Positions 2,401 to 17,256 of a stretch of 64,000 bases of DNA are shown in pieces. The position numbers were made by a program, and so were the translations under genes. Source of the stretch: Jatrophihabitans sp. GAS493 (GTDB taxonomy: Bacteria; Actinomycetota; Actinomycetes; Mycobacteriales; Jatrophihabitantaceae); the NCBI RefSeq assembly GCF_900230215.1, contig NZ_LT907982.1:2728001-2792000 (forward strand). The letters run 5' to 3'. Position 1 is the first letter of the stretch. Each line of letters starts with the position of its first letter. The notes under the pieces were generated by a model that saw only the letters and a program-made list of their open reading frames with translations, did no database searches and was not told the origin of the DNA.

Positions 2401-3807
2401 ATGAGCCGGTCCGCCCACCCTGCTGGTCCTCGGCACGCGGACGTGCTGCCCGAGTCATCGGGGTTCGGCCTTCCCTCCGACGTCCACGACCTCGACCCGG
2501 AGATCTGGCCGGCGTCGATCGAACGCGTCGACGGCGAACTACGGTTGGCCGGTCGGCGGCTCACCGATCTCGTCGCTGAGTACGGCACGCCGGCTTTCTT
2601 CATGGACGAGGCCGACGTGCGCGGGCGGGCCCGGGCCTATGCCGCCGCCTTCGACGGTGCCGATGTGTACTACGCCGGCAAGGCGTTTCTCTGCACCCAA
2701 CTGGCTCGCTGGATCGAGGCCGAGGGGCTCAACCTCGACGTCTGCACGGGTGGCGAGCTGGCGATCGCGCTGGCCGCCGATTTCCCGCCGCATCGGCTCG
2801 CGCTGCACGGCAACAACAAGAGCGTCGCTGAGCTGACGCGAGCCGTCGACGTCGGAGTCGGCAGCATCGTCGTCGATTCCTTCGACGAGATCGAGCGGCT
2901 GGCCCGGATCGCGCAAGCGGCCGGGGTCCGGCAGCGGGTGCTGATTCGCGTCACCGTCGGCGTCGAGGCGCACACCCACGAATTCATCGCCACCGCCCAC
3001 GAGGACCAGAAGTTCGGGTTCTCACTCAAGGGTGGGGACGCGCTGCGTGGGGCCCAGGCGGTCATCGAGGCGGAGTCCCTGGAACTGATCGGACTGCACT
3101 CCCACATCGGATCGCAGATCTTCGACACTGCCGGCTTCGAAGTGGCCGCCCACCGTGTCGTCGGGTTGGCCCGGGAGATCCGCGATCTCACCGGCGTCGA
3201 GGTCGAGCTGCTCAATCTCGGTGGCGGCCTCGGCATCGCGTATGTCAGTGGCGACGAGCCGCAGCCGGCCAAGGAGATCGCCGACCGGTTGAGCGAGATC
3301 GTCGACCGCGAGTCGGCCGCGGCGGGGTTGACCCGCCCCCGGCTGGCCGTCGAGCCCGGTCGGGCGATCGTGGGGCCGAGTGCGATCACCGTCTACCAGG
3401 TGGGCACTATCAAGCCGGTTGTCATCAATGATCAGCTGACCCGAAACTACATCTCGGTTGACGGCGGTATGAGTGACAACATCCGGACGGCTCTCTACGA
3501 CGCCGCCTACACCGTCACGCTGGCCAATCGGGTCTCGACGGCTGAGCTCGTTCGCAGCCGGGTCGTCGGAAAGCACTGCGAAAGTGGGGACATTGTCGTG
3601 CGGGATGCGTGGTTGCCGGCCGACGTCGCCCCCGGTGATCTGTTGGCGGTGGCCGCTACCGGTGCCTACTGCCGAAGTATGGCCAGTAATTACAACCAAG
3701 TTCCGCGCCCACCGGTGATCGGTGTGTGTGCGGGCCAGACCTCCGTGCTGCTGCGGCGCGAGACCGAGGACGATCTACTTCGTCTGGATCCAGGGTGGAC
3801 CAAATGA
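2401..3807 (+). CDS. lysA: Diaminopimelate decarboxylase
   Basis: Last step of lysine synthesis: PLP-dependent decarboxylation of meso-diaminopimelate. The 468-residue protein shows the fold III PLP lysine in YYAGKAF (K94), the HSHIGSQI motif, the GGGLG phosphate-binding stretch, EPGR, and CESGD plus [12 protein letters not shown] near the C-terminus. The ATG at 2401 follows a GGGGGAG ribosome site. Its stop overlaps the hom start by 4 bp (ATGA), so the two are probably translationally coupled, joining the lysine and threonine branches of the aspartate pathway. Confidence 0.95.
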
Positions 3808-9724: not shown

Positions 9725-9944
9725 TATGTTCCGGCAACATTCGCTGCGCGAATTTGTATGTTCGCACAACTTTTAGGGCGATCTCTTGCAAAAATCGTGC
9801 AGATCTGCCGTAGAAACAAGGATGTAACAGTTGAGCATCGACTCGGGCGATTCGGTTCCATTGTGCTTGTGACCCATGTCATTGTGCTGAAAGCGCTGCC
9901 AGGCGGTCCTGGTGGCCATTCAGTTAGAACGAAGGGACCATCGG
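9725..9944 (+). other. Regulatory region upstream of the sugar ABC operon
   Basis: No gene is seen between the rho terminator and the lipoprotein start. The stretch is more AT-rich than its surroundings. It holds a short inverted repeat (ATTCG-N5-CGAAT, 9739-9753), a repeated TTTGTATGTTC and the LacI-type operator at 9888-9901. I could not identify a convincing -35/-10 pair. Confidence 0.5.
9888..9901 (+). promoter_or_regulatory. LacI/GalR-family operator
   Basis: TGAAAGCGCTGCCA fits the general TG-N-AAnCGnT-N-CA pattern of LacI/GalR-family (cre-like) operators with its central AGCGCT palindrome. It is close to the 14-bp operators of Streptomyces sugar regulators such as CebR. It sits 44 bp before the lipoprotein start, suited to repression. 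No LacI gene is in the window. Confidence 0.65.
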
Positions 9945-11294
9945 ATGCAGTGGAACAAAGTCATGGCGGGTACCGCGATAGGTACGGCGGCCGTGTTGGC
10001 GCTTGCCGCATGTAGCAGTGACAAGAAGAGCACCAGCTCGAGCGTGCCCACCTTGACCGGTGATTGCGCCCAGTACCAGGCCTACGCCGGACATTCGGGC
10101 AAGAAGGTCACCATGTTCGGCTCGATCCTGAGCCCGGAGTCCGACTCGCTGCAGAAGTCGTGGGCCGACTTCGAGAAGTGCACGGGCATCACCATCACCT
10201 ACACCGGCTCCAACGACTTCGAGTCGCAGCTGCCGGTTCAGGTCCAGGGTGGAAGCGCCCCGAACCTTGCGATCATCCCGCAGCCCGGTCTGCTGGCTCA
10301 GATGGTCAAGACCGGCAGCGTAGTCAAGCCGCCGGACCAGACCGTGAAGAACGAGGACAACTGGCCGGCGGTCTACAAGACCTACGGCACGGTGAACGGC
10401 ACGTTCTACGCCGCACCGATGAGCTCGAACATGAAGTCGCTGGTCTGGTACTCGCCGTCGTTCTTCAAGGCCAACGGCTACACCGTCCCGACCACGTGGG
10501 CCGACCTCATGTCCCTCTCGGCCAAGATCGCCGCTGATGGCAAGGCGAAGCCGTGGTGTGGTGGCATCGGCTCGGGTACGGCCACCGGCTGGCCGGCCAC
10601 CGACTGGCTGGAGGAGGCCGTTCTCGGCACCTTCGGCGGATCGGTCTACGACGACTGGATCAGCCACAAGGTCAAGTTCTCGGACGCGCAGATTCAGACC
10701 GCGATGAAGACCGTTGCCAGCTACATGCAGAACCCGGCATGGGTCAACGGCGGCTACGGTGACGTCAAGACGATCGCCACCACGACGTTCCAGGACGCCG
10801 GTCTGCCGATCCTGAAGGACAAGTGCGGCATGCTGCAGCAGGCGTCCTTCTACGAGGCGCAGTGGCCGAAGGGCACGAAGGTCGGACCGGATGGCCAGGT
10901 CTTCGCGTTCTACCTGCCGGCGGTTGACCCGTCGATCCAGACGCCGGTTGAGGGTGGTGGCGAATTCGTCGCCGCATTCTCCAGCGACCCGGCCGTCCAG
11001 GCCGTTCAGAACTACGTCTCCAGCCCGGAGTGGGTCACCTCGCGCGTCAAGGTCGCCAGCGGTTGGGTCTCGGCCAACACCAAGGTCCCGGCCAGCACCT
11101 ACACCGACCCGATCGACCAGATCTCGGCGAAGTACCTCACCGACTCGTCGGCGACGTTCCGCTTCGACGCGTCTGACCTGATGCCGGCCGCCGTCGGCTC
11201 CGGTGCAGAGTGGAAGGGCATGACCGAGTGGTTCGGCAGCGGAAAGTCGACTGCCGATGTCGCGAAGGAGATTGATGCGGCTTGGCCCAACTAG
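9945..11294 (+). CDS. Sugar ABC transporter substrate-binding lipoprotein (AglE-like)
   Basis: Extracellular solute-binding protein of the carbohydrate-uptake class (SBP family 1). The start is ATG 9945 behind GAAGGGA. The signal sequence ends in the lipobox LALAAC with C23 as the lipidated residue, followed by a Ser/Lys linker. The mature part has TMFGSILSPESDSLQKSW and the later GWPATDWLEE and FAFYLPAVDP stretches. It resembles the AglE type that serves alpha-glucosides. It is followed, after a strong hairpin, by two permease genes. The substrate is inferred, not shown; another oligosaccharide is possible. Confidence 0.85.
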   Translation: MQWNKVMAGTAIGTAAVLALAACSSDKKSTSSSVPTLTGDCAQYQAYAGHSGKKVTMFGSILSPESDSLQKSWADFEKCTGITITYTGSNDFESQLPVQVQGGSAPNLAIIPQPGLLAQMVKTGSVVKPPDQTVKNEDNWPAVYKTYGTVNGTFYAAPMSSNMKSLVWYSPSFFKANGYTVPTTWADLMSLSAKIAADGKAKPWCGGIGSGTATGWPATDWLEEAVLGTFGGSVYDDWISHKVKFSDAQIQTAMKTVASYMQNPAWVNGGYGDVKTIATTTFQDAGLPILKDKCGMLQQASFYEAQWPKGTKVGPDGQVFAFYLPAVDPSIQTPVEGGGEFVAAFSSDPAVQAVQNYVSSPEWVTSRVKVASGWVSANTKVPASTYTDPIDQISAKYLTDSSATFRFDASDLMPAAVGSGAEWKGMTEWFGSGKSTADVAKEIDAAWPN

Positions 11295-11318
11295 TGGCTA
11301 AGTTGTACCTCGGATAGG

Positions 11319-11370
11319 GCAACGATTTGCGGCCCGTGGGCAGATGTCTGCGGGCCGCAAATCGTTGCTT
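11319..11370 (+). terminator. Strong hairpin between lipoprotein and permease genes
   Basis: An 18-bp perfect stem (11319-11336 with 11351-11368) encloses a loop that can itself pair (CAGA/TCTG); TTTC follows. In the middle of an operon this can act as a partial terminator or mRNA-stabilising barrier, giving more binding protein than permease. Such hairpins are known between malE and malF-type genes. Confidence 0.75.
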
Positions 11371-11414
11371 TCGGCTGTACCTTGCACCTCTTGGAACGGA
11401 AACGGTAGGGGAAT

Positions 11415-12446
11415 ATGTCCACCTTGGCGTCCCAGCCTGTACTTGAGGCTTCGCTACTGACCGATAGTGCCTCGAAGCTATTCACAGTTGTTCTGGTCGT
11501 TGGCGGATTCATCGCCGTCATGCTCATCATCTTCTTCATCGCCGAACGCGCGCCCGGAAGGTTCCAGCGACCGCTGGCGATCTTCATCTGCCTGGCCCCG
11601 GCGGTGATCCTCGTACTCATCGGCCTGGTGATCCCGGCCATTCGTACAATGTTCCTCAGCCTGCACGGCCCCGATCCCATCGGGCCGGGAGCGGCGTATG
11701 TCGGCCTCAAGAACTACAAATGGGCGATCACCGACAACGCTACCCAGGACACCCTGATTCGGACTGTGCTCTGGCTGATCATCGTGCCGCTGGCCGCCAC
11801 CATCTTCGGCCTCACCGTCGCGCTGCTGGTCGACCGGATGAAATACCAGGCCTTCCCGAAGGCGATGATCTTCATGCCGACGGCGATCTCCTTCGTCGGC
11901 GCCGCCGTGATCTGGAAGTACGTCTACAACTACACCGACCCCAAGCAGCCGCAGATCGGCCTGCTGAGCCAGATCGTCATCAAACTCGGTTGGCACAACC
12001 CCCCGAACTGGCTACTGACCAGCACCGGCCTCCTGAACACCTTCCTCCTCATGATCATCATGATCTGGATCCAGACCGGATTCGCGATGGTCGTCCTCTC
12101 GGCCGCGTTGAAGGCCATTCCCGATGAGATCGTCGAGGCGGCCCGGATGGACGGGGCCACCGGCTTCAAACTCTTCCGAACCGTTCAGCTGCCGATGATC
12201 AGAACCACCATGATCGTGGTGGTCACGACGATCATGATCGCGACGCTGAAGGTCTTCGACATCGTCTACACGATGACCGGTGGTCAGTTCGACACGGACG
12301 TGCTCTCCAACGACATGTACAACCAGGTCTTCACCCAGTTCAATCTCGGTCGAGGCAGCGCACTGGCCGTCATTCTCTTCCTGGCCGTGCTCCCGCTAGT
12401 CATCTACAACATTCTGCAGATGCGCAAGGATAGGACCGGTCGATGA
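11415..12446 (+). CDS. Sugar ABC transporter permease (MalF/AglF-like)
   Basis: Inner-membrane permease with about eight hydrophobic segments over 343 residues, including an extra N-terminal pair (residues 25-45 and 55-80) as in MalF-type proteins. The cytoplasmic EAA loop that docks the ATPase is clear: EIVEAARMDGATGFKLFRTV (about residue 235). GGQFDTDVLSNDMYNQVF near the C-terminus is typical of the AglF branch. Its stop overlaps the next permease by 4 bp (ATGA). Confidence 0.9.
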   Translation: MSTLASQPVLEASLLTDSASKLFTVVLVVGGFIAVMLIIFFIAERAPGRFQRPLAIFICLAPAVILVLIGLVIPAIRTMFLSLHGPDPIGPGAAYVGLKNYKWAITDNATQDTLIRTVLWLIIVPLAATIFGLTVALLVDRMKYQAFPKAMIFMPTAISFVGAAVIWKYVYNYTDPKQPQIGLLSQIVIKLGWHNPPNWLLTSTGLLNTFLLMIIMIWIQTGFAMVVLSAALKAIPDEIVEAARMDGATGFKLFRTVQLPMIRTTMIVVVTTIMIATLKVFDIVYTMTGGQFDTDVLSNDMYNQVFTQFNLGRGSALAVILFLAVLPLVIYNILQMRKDRTGR

Positions 12447-13405
12447 CAAACGCGCCTATGATCCCGGAGATTCCCGGGCCACTCGAAGCACGACCCGAGC
12501 CGAAGCGCAAGGTGGTGCGCCAGGCTTTCAGCAACCCGGCCGCCTCGATCGTCGTCATCCTGATCACCGTGGCCTGGACGGTGCCGGTTCTCGGCCTGCT
12601 CGTGACCTCGCTGCGTCCGAAGGAGGACTCCGCCTCCACCGGCTGGTGGACCTTCTTCGCCCACCCGCACCTCACTTTCTCCAACTACAACACCGTCCTG
12701 TTCAAGGGCGGCTACAACGTCAGCGGCGGACTATTCCCCTACGTCGTGAACTCGCTGGCCATCACCATTCCGGCGACGGTGATCCCGATCATCATCGCCG
12801 CGATGGCGGCCTACGCGCTGGCCTGGGTCCGGTTCAAGGGCAGCGACGTGCTCTTCTTCCTGATCTTCGCCCTCCAGGTGGTGCCGCTGCAGATGTCGCT
12901 CGTGCCGCTGCTGCAGCTCTACAACAAGGGCGTCCACCTCGGCACGATCACGATCATCCCGAATCCGAACCTCAAGGGGTCACTGGCCGAGGTGTGGATC
13001 TCGCACACGATGTTCTCGCTACCGCTGGCCATCTTCCTGCTGCACAACTTCATCTCCGCCCTTCCGGAGTCGCTGATCGAGGCGGCTCGGGTCGACGGGG
13101 CCAGCCATCTGCGGATCTTCCGCACCATCGTGCTGCCGCTGTCGTTGCCGGCCATCGCCTCCTTCGCGATCTTCCAGTTCCTCTGGGTCTGGAACGATCT
13201 GCTCATCGCGCTGACCTTCGCCGGCAAGACACCGGCGACCCAGCCGTTGACCGCCCAGCTGCAGCAGCTGACCGGGTCTCTCGGCAGCCACCTGGAGTTG
13301 TTGACCGCCGGCGGCTTCGTCTCGATCGTCATTCCGATGATCGTCTTCTTCGCCCTCCAGCGATACTTCGTCCGCGGCATGCTGGCGGGGTCGGTCAAGG
13401 GCTGA
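12443..13405 (+). CDS. Sugar ABC transporter permease (MalG/AglG-like)
   Basis: Partner permease of 320 residues with six hydrophobic segments and the EAA loop ESLIEAARVDGASHLRIFRT (about residue 212). It is translationally coupled to the upstream permease. No nucleotide-binding subunit follows: the next gene is rpmE. Actinobacteria commonly energise such importers with one shared ATPase (MsiK type) encoded elsewhere, and that is the likely case here. Confidence 0.9.
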   Translation: MTNAPMIPEIPGPLEARPEPKRKVVRQAFSNPAASIVVILITVAWTVPVLGLLVTSLRPKEDSASTGWWTFFAHPHLTFSNYNTVLFKGGYNVSGGLFPYVVNSLAITIPATVIPIIIAAMAAYALAWVRFKGSDVLFFLIFALQVVPLQMSLVPLLQLYNKGVHLGTITIIPNPNLKGSLAEVWISHTMFSLPLAIFLLHNFISALPESLIEAARVDGASHLRIFRTIVLPLSLPAIASFAIFQFLWVWNDLLIALTFAGKTPATQPLTAQLQQLTGSLGSHLELLTAGGFVSIVIPMIVFFALQRYFVRGMLAGSVKG

Positions 13406-13590
13406 GATCGGAGCGGGCCGTCGAGGTTTCGCTGCTTCGGCGGCCCGGAATTTCTCTAGGTAGGCAGGCGTTGACTCCTTGTTTGGTCAGCCGTGCACTT
13501 ACCTGGCAGACTGAGCTACACCACCCGGCTCTGGTTCACGCCCGCTCAAATCGATGGCGACCCAGCGCTGCACTATGAAAGGGATCCAAA

Positions 13591-13827
13591 GTGAAGACCG
13601 GAATTCACCCAGAGTACGTAGACACCACAGTGACCTGTTCCTGTGGCAGTACGTTCACCACGCGTAGCACCGCCAAGGGCGGCCAGCTGCACGCGGACGT
13701 CTGCTCCGCCTGCCACCCGTTCTACACGGGCAAGCAGAAGATCTTGGATGTCGGCGGTCGCGTCGACAAGTTCGAGAAGCGCTTCGGCAAGCGGGTTCGT
13801 CCCGGCACGGAGTCTGCCAACTCCTAG
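13591..13827 (+). CDS. rpmE: 50S ribosomal protein L31, zinc-binding form
   Basis: Small 78-residue protein of the large ribosomal subunit. The Cys residues in TVTCSC and [11 protein letters not shown] provide the CxxC-type zinc site that marks the zinc-containing (C+) paralogue, usually expressed when zinc is sufficient. Start is GTG 13591 after GAAAGGGA. It precedes prfA as in many actinobacteria. The 185 bp upstream contain no gene and an unassigned promoter. Confidence 0.95.
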
Positions 13828-13835
13828 CAACGCCA

Positions 13836-13881
13836 ACGACGCCCGTTATCTCCTCCGCCCGGTCGAGATGACGGGCGTCGT
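13836..13881 (+). terminator. Hairpin after rpmE
   Basis: ACGACGCCCGT (13836-13846) pairs with ACGGGCGTCGT (13871-13881) across a 24-nt loop, just after the rpmE stop. There is no T-run, so it may be a weak terminator or a processing signal before prfA. Confidence 0.5.
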
Positions 13882-13996
13882 CGCGTATTGCCACCCGTTT
13901 CGAACCACCTTCAATCGACTCCCTCGATTGATTCGTGACTGACTCACCGCGGGGCCTGAGCCGGCCCGCAACCGCAAGCTAGGACTGACCGAAATC

Positions 13997-15076
<1,080 letters not shown>

Positions 15077-15128
15077 CCGGTCCACCCGGCTGTGAAATCA
15101 GTTCGTCGATGAAGGAGCGAATGTCGCC

Positions 15129-15794
15129 GTGAGCACTGTTGTCGACTGCGCCGACCCCCAAGCTCGCGAAGACGGGCTGGTCAGCGCGACCCGGGCGGTC
15201 CAGTCCGGTCAGCTCGTCGTTCTGCCGACCGACACCGTCTACGGCATCGGGGCCGATGCCTTCGACAGCGTGGCCGTTACGTCGCTGCTCGCGGCGAAGG
15301 GGCGCGGGCGTGACATGCCGGTGCCGGTGCTGGTCGGATCGTGGAACACCATCGATGGCCTCGTCTCGTCGGTGAACGCGGCCACCCGGTCGCTGATCGA
15401 GGCTTTCTGGCCCGGCGGCCTCACGCTCGTCGTGGAGCATGCCCCGTCGCTGTCCTGGGACCTCGGCGACTCCCGCGGAACGGTGGCCCTGCGGATGCCG
15501 CTGCACCCGGTCGCCCTGGAGCTGCTGGCGCTCACCGGGCCGATGGCCGTCTCCAGCGCGAATCGCTCCGGTCATCCGGCTGCGCTCACCGCTGAAGAGG
15601 CCCTTGAACAGCTCGGCGGCAGCGTCAGCGTCTATCTGGATGGCGGTCCGGCCACCACCGGAATCGCCTCGACCATCGTCGACGTGACCGGTGACATCCC
15701 CAGAGTACTGCGCACCGGAGCGGTCTCGCTGGAGCGCCTGCGCGACGTGTTGGGGGAGCTCGTGGGCGACGATACGGGAGCCGTCACCGGCTGA
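15129..15794 (+). CDS. L-threonylcarbamoyladenylate synthase (Sua5/YrdC)
   Basis: Makes threonylcarbamoyl-AMP from threonine, bicarbonate and ATP for the t6A modification at tRNA position 37. The 221 residues contain the YrdC core: VLPTDTVYGIGADAFD, AAKGRGRDMPVPVLV, FWPGGLTLV, and SSANRSGHPA. Length corresponds to a YrdC-type protein with a short C-terminal extension. The GTG at 15129 follows GAAGGAG; the ATG at 15121 is closed by an in-frame stop. It sits where prmC-sua5 is usually found. Confidence 0.92.
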   Translation: MSTVVDCADPQAREDGLVSATRAVQSGQLVVLPTDTVYGIGADAFDSVAVTSLLAAKGRGRDMPVPVLVGSWNTIDGLVSSVNAATRSLIEAFWPGGLTLVVEHAPSLSWDLGDSRGTVALRMPLHPVALELLALTGPMAVSSANRSGHPAALTAEEALEQLGGSVSVYLDGGPATTGIASTIVDVTGDIPRVLRTGAVSLERLRDVLGELVGDDTGAVTG

Positions 15795-15966: not shown

Positions 15967-17256
15967 GTGCATCCTAGTTTTGAGTACGCGCTGGTCTGCT
16001 GCGTAGCCGCCGCGGGCAGCTTTCTGCTGACCCCGCTGGCGCGCGCCGTTGCGATCGCGTGGAAAGCCGTGGCGATGCCCCGTGACCGGGACGTTCATGC
16101 CGTAGCCACGCCGCGGCTCGGCGGCTTGGCGATGCTCGGCGGGCTCATCGCCGCCTTCGGTGTGGCGCACATGCTGCCCACCCTGCAGACCACCTTCACC
16201 AACCCGGGCGCCGATATCGGATGGATCGTCATCAGCGGCGTCCTGATCTGCCTGCTCGGCGTGCTCGACGACCGCTACGACCTGGATTCGGTGACGAAAT
16301 TGGCCGGGCAGGTGCTGGTCACCGGTCTGATGGTGACCAAGGGGGGCGTCCAGCTGTCGGCCGTCTATGTGCCCTGGGGTCACGCTGGGACGGTGGTGCT
16401 GGGCCAAGACATCGCGATTCCGGTGACCATTCTGATGGTCGTACTGACGATCAACGCGATCAACTTCATTGACGGTCTCGACGGACTGGCGGCCGGAGTC
16501 TCGGCGATCGGGGCCGGTGCCTTCTTCTTGTACGCCTATCACCTCGCCGTGATCGGGCACACCGATATCGCGGCGGCGCCGACTCTGCTGGCCGCCTGCC
16601 TGGTCGGCACCTGTGTGGGATTTCTGCCGCACAACTTCTCGCCGGCTCGGATCTTCATGGGCGACTCCGGTTCGATGCTGATCGGACTCTTTCTCTCCGC
16701 GGCCGCCACCACAGCCACCACCAGCGGTGACCCGCAGACCCTCTTCGGAAATCTGCTCGGGTCGCTGCCGCTGGCGCTGCCGCTGCTAGTGCCGCTCGCC
16801 GTACTGGCGATCCCGTTCATGGACCTCGTCCTCGCGGTGCTGCGCCGGCTGCGCCGTCGTCAGTCGCCCTTCGCCGCCGATAAGGAGCATCTGCACCACC
16901 GGATGCTGGAGATCGGCCACACTCACCGGCGCGCGGTACTGCTGCTCTACTTCTGGTCCGCGCTGCTCTCATTCGGCGCGGTGGCCTTCTCCATCACGCG
17001 CAGCGCGTGGGCGGTGGTGTCGGTGGTGGCGGTGCTCGCCTTCCTTGGGGTGCTGCTCTCCGCAGTTCCCCGGCTCCGATCGCCCCGGCCGGAGCCGGCG
17101 CCGATAAGCTGGCCCACCGATCCGCCGGTGGTTGACGACGCGGAGATCGCAGAGGCGGTCGGCGAGTCCGTGATTGCTGGATCACCACTGCCGGCAGCGG
17201 TGCCAGCTCCGATCGCCGCGACCACCACCCCGGTCGACATCGCTCGCACCCGATGA
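15967..17256 (+). CDS. wecA: Undecaprenyl-phosphate GlcNAc-1-phosphate transferase (WecA/Rfe/TagO type)
   Basis: Polytopic membrane enzyme that starts lipid-linked cell-envelope glycan synthesis by transferring GlcNAc-1-phosphate to undecaprenyl or decaprenyl phosphate. Hallmarks are GVLDDRYDLD (Mg-binding DD), NAINFIDGLDGLAAG, ARIFMGDSGSML and the cytoplasmic EHLHHRMLEIGHTHRR (HxHHR motif near residue 310). About 11 membrane segments are seen in 429 residues. Pro/Ala-rich tail. Start GTG 15967. It overlaps the next small gene by 4 bp. In mycobacteria the homologue also precedes atpB and begins arabinogalactan linker synthesis. Confidence 0.92.
   Translation: MHPSFEYALVCCVAAAGSFLLTPLARAVAIAWKAVAMPRDRDVHAVATPRLGGLAMLGGLIAAFGVAHMLPTLQTTFTNPGADIGWIVISGVLICLLGVLDDRYDLDSVTKLAGQVLVTGLMVTKGGVQLSAVYVPWGHAGTVVLGQDIAIPVTILMVVLTINAINFIDGLDGLAAGVSAIGAGAFFLYAYHLAVIGHTDIAAAPTLLAACLVGTCVGFLPHNFSPARIFMGDSGSMLIGLFLSAAATTATTSGDPQTLFGNLLGSLPLALPLLVPLAVLAIPFMDLVLAVLRRLRRRQSPFAADKEHLHHRMLEIGHTHRRAVLLLYFWSALLSFGAVAFSITRSAWAVVSVVAVLAFLGVLLSAVPRLRSPRPEPAPISWPTDPPVVDDAEIAEAVGESVIAGSPLPAAVPAPIAATTTPVDIARTR

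Follow-up and report, generated by a model that had tools for sequence, protein, structure and literature searches.

Xenologous gene displacement and, in mosaic operons, 'gene displacement in situ' are established terms for cases in which an orthologue acquired by horizontal transfer takes the place of a native gene of the same family. The release factor N5-glutamine methyltransferase PrmC/HemK (TIGR03534) modifies release factors and its gene is usually tied to prfA, so that it is expected to be inherited together with the operon. According to the SIMBAL study (PMC3098086), IPRPDTE and SNPPYI are among the signatures of genuine PrmC, and the training set omitted genomes in which the PrmC homologue is not near prfA; for these the substrate could not be concluded. 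In the two species of the genus described here, prmC has in all probability been acquired from another family and is located away from the operon.

The stretch of DNA analyzed (64,000 nucleotides; hereafter the window) corresponds to C1:2728001-2792000 of the source genome (G000), which consists of a single contig (C1) of 4,879,921 bases. A first-pass annotation had reported that prmC is missing between prfA and sua5, which lie 52 bp apart, although the flanking order of rpmE, wecA and atp genes is conserved. Both observations were borne out by profile searches and coordinates, with rpmE and the atp genes named by eye. On the plus strand of the window, rpmE (ribosomal protein L31; 13591-13827, a 78-aa open reading frame in the upstream flank) is followed by prfA (peptide chain release factor 1; 13997-15076; TIGR00019, 469 bits, cut-off 423), sua5 (L-threonylcarbamoyladenylate synthase; 15129-15794, GTG start; TIGR00057, 198 bits, cut-off 123), a gene for a WecA/MraY-type glycosyl-1-phosphate transferase (15967-17256; TIGR02380, E 4e-37, 128 bits, below the cut-off of 326) and, downstream of the latter, the atp genes. 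The 52 bp between prfA and sua5 (15077-15128, plus strand), which we regard as the vacated ancestral prmC site, are too short for any prmC. They contain an AAGGAG sequence resembling a ribosome-binding site ahead of the sua5 GTG, and a promoter and terminator scan of positions 13400-15300 returned neither element within the gap.

Two further features of this region were noted in comparison with G001, the only other genome of the genus in our comparison. A 7-codon ATG...TGA frame (15109-15132) runs across the AAGGAG sequence and overlaps the GTG start of sua5 (GTGA); it is retained with substitutions in G001 and could reflect translational coupling, or mere conservation of the binding site. Upstream, genes for a solute-binding protein and two ABC sugar-type permeases (9912-13405, named by eye) lie between rho and rpmE, an interval usually free of genes in actinobacteria, and DNA similarity to G001 spans this segment.

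The positions of prmC and prfA were both searched in 61 genomes, comprising 2 of the genus, 22 of the rest of the family and 37 of other families of the order. As in the source genome, the two genes are far apart in G001, where prfA and sua5 are separated by 46 bp and prmC lies 198 kb from prfA; this recurrence argues against a fortuitous gap. Elsewhere in the family, prmC stands directly after prfA in 17 out of 17 judgeable genomes, two of which (G013 and G008) were counted as adjacent because the contig bearing prmC also bears a 3' fragment of RF1 (in G008 at the contig end). The five genomes that were not judgeable are four with no detected prfA (G003, G016, G020 and G023) and one with both genes at contig ends (G005). 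Immediately after prmC, sua5 was found in 12 of the 17, and in three (G007, G015 and G017) the DNA stretch was too short to place sua5 relative to prmC. All 37 genomes of other families carry prfA and prmC on one contig, at a spacing below 400 bp in 29, of 1.6-1.85 kb in 7 and of 28.8 kb in a single genome (G048). Given this arrangement across the 61 genomes, the far-apart state of prfA and prmC is derived and, among these genomes, confined to the genus.

Other departures from the canonical order were encountered during this survey. In G021 (L223) and G022 (L224), sua5 lies ∼1.5 kb past prmC, the operon being opened at its other joint. The ∼29 kb separating prfA and prmC in G048 (L158 4394-20000, L159 1-13095) compare with 320 bp in the congeneric G057. 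Two prfA-prmC-sua5 loci are present in G055 (L273 and L274), one of them on a 4.6-kb contig, which is likely caused by contamination or strain mixture.

The general premise of the first-pass annotation, namely that prfA is followed by prmC and then sua5 in most actinobacteria, holds in a loose sense. Among the best 80 of 584 named loci, which are rich in Microbacterium and hence an uneven sample, the prmC start lies less than 400 bp from prfA in 47; in 29 it lies 0.4-10 kb downstream, and in the remaining 4, 3 of which have less than 2 kb of contig left, no prmC was found. The 29 loci with the larger spacing (e.g. L075, L086, L092 and L096) include many from Microbacterium and two from Amycolatopsis, and the 3' side of prfA may be a frequent insertion place.

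The first-pass annotation had proposed a search of the full genome for a PrmC homologue carrying the NPPY motif, and such a search recovered one intact PrmC. Out of 12 matches to TIGR03534 in the whole of G000 (E <= 0.001), only one exceeds the cut-off (C1:2493737-2494498, 238.3 bits, cut-off 199.1). The corresponding gene (C1:2493638-2494531, outside the window; 297 aa) begins 45 bp past the stop codon of an acyl-CoA dehydrogenase gene and lies ∼247 kb upstream of prfA, so that the adjacency to prfA which is usual for prmC, if not defining, is absent. The encoded protein is full length (profile positions 4-252 of 253, no internal stop), its counterpart in G001 likewise passes the cut-off (241.9 bits), and the IPRPETE and SNPPYVP motifs are present in both. 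The E in place of D in RP[DE]TE is also found in the PrmCs of the own-family relatives shown. By every test run, that is, by score, motifs and full length, the predicted protein is PrmC.

In G001, prmC lies beside the same acyl-CoA dehydrogenase gene as in G000; the dehydrogenases are 98-99% identical and the left flank is conserved, and the right flank past prmC differs between the two genomes. Six relatives carry the dehydrogenase gene with no prmC behind it. The DNA that follows the gene differs from genus to genus and in these relatives takes three continuations (shared by G002 and G006; by G011, G015 and G017; and in G004 alone), none of which matches G000 or G001 beyond prmC. The distance between prmC and prfB is 21 kb in G000 and 13 kb in G001. 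As the dehydrogenase gene of G006, which is devoid of prmC, is likewise located ∼9 kb from prfB, this proximity comes with the site of insertion and calls for no separate explanation.

Possible mobile carriers of the genus prmC were sought in two collections. Among plasmids (E <= 1e-20), 7 records matched, all below 60% identity, the best full-length match, in an 11.85-Mb Nonomuraea record, reaching 46.5% at 92% query coverage. Among phages (E <= 1e-10), 30 records matched, again all below 60%, with identities of 29-35% among the 10 of 30 listed. No close carrier was thus found in either collection.

The sequence relationships of PrmC are in conflict with those of its former neighbours. The genus PrmC is 41-49% identical to the PrmCs of its own family (45-52% in a separate search), compared to 76-84% for RF1 (87% over one fragment) and 65-75% for Sua5 in the loci read; by identity, sua5 appears native to the family. 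Relative to the own family, L105, a metagenome-assembled genome (MAG) of the Actinomycetales, is closer to the genus in PrmC (61%) and further in RF1 (67%) and Sua5 (57%). In a 100-row PrmC tree, both genus species group with L105 at 100/99 and the family forms a separate clade, and forcing the genus and the family (19 rows) into one PrmC clade is 79.8 log units worse in an AU test (p 4.2e-6). In contrast, a 75-row RF1 tree nests both genus species within their own family (100/100) and joins L105 to Paraoerskovia (100/92); by this placement prfA is native to the family. Both trees drew on 29 of the 80 named loci, and a partial PrmC (L225, 209 aa) was excluded from the PrmC trees. The RF1 and PrmC rows of one family member, G002, are identical to those of L072, a locus labelled Jatrophihabitans sp., which makes Jatrophihabitantaceae the probable family. 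Tree path distances to L105 amount to ∼3.0 for RF1 and ∼1.0 for PrmC.

When a native-type PrmC was used as query against G000 and G001 (E <= 0.001), only the foreign copy and a TIGR03704 paralogue were recovered. Both species have in common a foreign and intact prmC, the absence of the native gene from a recognisably empty ancestral site and of a recognised native copy from the rest of the genome, and a supported foreign placement of PrmC (trees, AU test) while the neighbouring RF1 is native.

Pairwise scores and trees were both considered for the origin of the foreign gene. An even class sample of 394 genomes yielded best matches to the genus PrmC of 53% identity (E 1.3e-76) in several other families. 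In the family of the L105 genome (G446), matches with E below 1e-60 were obtained from 22 of 24 genomes, with identities of 50-59% and E values of 5e-96 to 2e-73; the best own-family match outside the genus has an E of 7e-64. The weaker members of the donor family (2e-73) are outscored by the best foreign families of the class sample (E 1.3e-76), so that the donor is identified by the tree and not by pairwise scores taken by themselves. A 61-row PrmC tree was built from 20 of the 22 donor-family matches (those with a locus) and 41 background rows taken from the 100-row tree (10 of them from the genus itself or its family). In this tree, the genus PrmC falls into a 23-row clade with the donor family at 100/99, and the donor family is monophyletic without the genus PrmC in 0% of 200 bootstrap trees. 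In the donor family, prmC starts 42-173 bp after prfA in all 20 loci, which indicates that the enzyme derives from a PrmC of the usual, operon-borne kind. According to the RF1 tree, the genus RF1 was not transferred along with it. As part of the joint displacement reading, and with the same high degree of confidence, the gene can be assigned to the actinobacterial family of the L105 MAG, at family level only.

The most serious alternative is that the native prmC was simply relocated by rearrangement over ∼247 kb and is merely fast-evolving. This explanation shares with displacement the existence of a prmC elsewhere in the genome, and it could draw on the evolutionary rate of the gene: the PrmC/RF1 distance ratio has a median of 0.92 (range 0.57-2.04) across 66 native family pairs, and the value of 2.36 for the G000-G001 pair exceeds all of them. 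Such a rate may stem from relaxed constraint, from co-adaptation to the native release factors or, being based on one pair, from chance. Fast rows can be misplaced in trees; no long end branch was flagged in the 100-row or the 61-row PrmC tree. Rapid evolution by itself, however, gives no specific affinity, and a PrmC that is 61% identical to that of another family vs 41-49% to those of its own, together with the AU test (p 4.2e-6) and the nesting within the clade of the donor family, leads us to reject relocation as very unlikely. The suggestion of the first-pass annotation that prmC has moved is therefore correct in that a prmC sits elsewhere, but the gene found there is foreign and not the family's own (trees, AU test). 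Its corollary, that a prmC elsewhere in the genome makes this a simple relocation, gives the wrong answer here, as judged from the phylogeny of PrmC.

A second alternative is that the TIGR03704 paralogue (G000:C1:3337209) took over release-factor methylation. With 178.8 bits against the PrmC profile it ranks second among the 12 matches of the whole-genome search, and paralogues of this kind, below the PrmC cut-off, recur in many genomes of the order. Although a member of the same methyltransferase family (above the TIGR00536 cut-off), the protein falls short of the PrmC threshold (199) and passes that of TIGR03704 (344 bits, cut-off 249), and it carries VPRRRTE and NAPY where PrmC has RP[DE]TE and NPPY. 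Moreover, relatives such as G004, G006 and G011 carry a paralogue of this kind in addition to an operon prmC. A takeover is thus considered highly improbable, even more so than relocation.

Less credible still is a true loss of PrmC, with RF1 and RF2 compensating through sequence changes, as had initially been put forward. The only observation in its favour is the absence of the gene from its usual place, and it is contradicted by the full-length PrmC above cut-off in G000 and G001, on which grounds it was rejected. Nor do the release factors point in this direction. The prfB gene of G000 is located at C1:2515195 and encodes GGQ within the SSGKGGQGVNTT context, the serine of which we take to be the 246-type position. 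Over the 32 residues compared, the GGQ loop of RF1 does not differ from that of G005 or G010. To judge from sequence, both GGQ loops look ordinary and give no hint of compensation for missing methylation. Elsewhere in the genome, the GGQ portion of the release-factor model has a match in an open frame of 152 aa (L070; G000:C1:1058760-1058921, minus strand; E 1.7e-7), which perhaps encodes an ArfB-type rescue hydrolase. That the foreign prmC is contamination introduced by an assembly or binning artefact is equally implausible, for although G000 was examined as an assembly and not at read level, it is a single contig of 4.88 Mb (99.67% complete, 0.22% contaminated), the gene preceding prmC is a dehydrogenase gene of native type, and the second genome, likewise a single contig, shares this junction.

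Taken together, we consider it very probable that prmC was xenologously displaced in the common ancestor of G000 and G001, a reading based on two genomes of the genus. A prmC from the actinobacterial family of L105 would have inserted directly behind the chromosomal acyl-CoA dehydrogenase gene, and the native prmC behind prfA would have been deleted before the two species split, leaving sua5 with its own ribosome-binding-site-like sequence 52 bp behind prfA. The gain of the foreign prmC presumably preceded the loss of the native copy, as otherwise the cell would pass through a PrmC-less state. The acquired PrmC most likely has the GGQ glutamine of native RF1 and RF2 as its methylation target; that it functionally replaced the native enzyme is suggested by the intactness of the gene and by its being the only PrmC over the cut-off.

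The proposed order of gain before loss is made concrete by G052, a genome from another family of the same order, which carries an operon prmC between prfA and sua5 plus a second full-length PrmC on another contig (copies at L269 (G052:C3:905001-911000) 2865-3650 and L270 (G052:C2:718001-724000) 2554-3414). In a quick tree with SH-aLRT support only, this second PrmC groups with Microbacteriaceae (SH-aLRT 98), with 57% identity to Herbiconiux; the second-copy row of G049 was flagged as a long branch in this tree, from which only the G052 placement was used. G052 thus looks like the state expected when gain precedes loss.

For annotators, these results imply that an operon gene which is missing from its place but found elsewhere has not necessarily been relocated, and that the gene tree decides. 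They also provide two species whose native release factors have to be served by a methylase of foreign origin, which renders the compatibility of enzyme and substrate testable. One may speculate, with considerable reservation, that the foreign methylase suited native RF1 and RF2 well enough for the native gene to be deleted and that the fast evolution thereafter represents refitting to the new substrates. If so, and considered together with G052, PrmC would be a repeatedly exchangeable modifier of translation, usable for watching enzyme-substrate co-adaptation after transfer.

In terms of described systems, the event is of a known kind, xenologous gene displacement, which took place here outside the original locus, and the instance is new: no displacement of prmC was described in literature titles and abstracts among the matches listed, which is weak evidence of absence. 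The enzyme itself resembles PrmC/HemK as described (TIGR03534) in score, in the RPETE and NPPY motifs and in full length, and the genus copy differs by standing outside the prfA neighbourhood. As in both kinds of displacement named at the outset, a native gene has very probably given way to an orthologue of the same family that was acquired horizontally; unlike in 'gene displacement in situ', the foreign prmC is located ∼247 kb away and the slot in the operon stands vacant.
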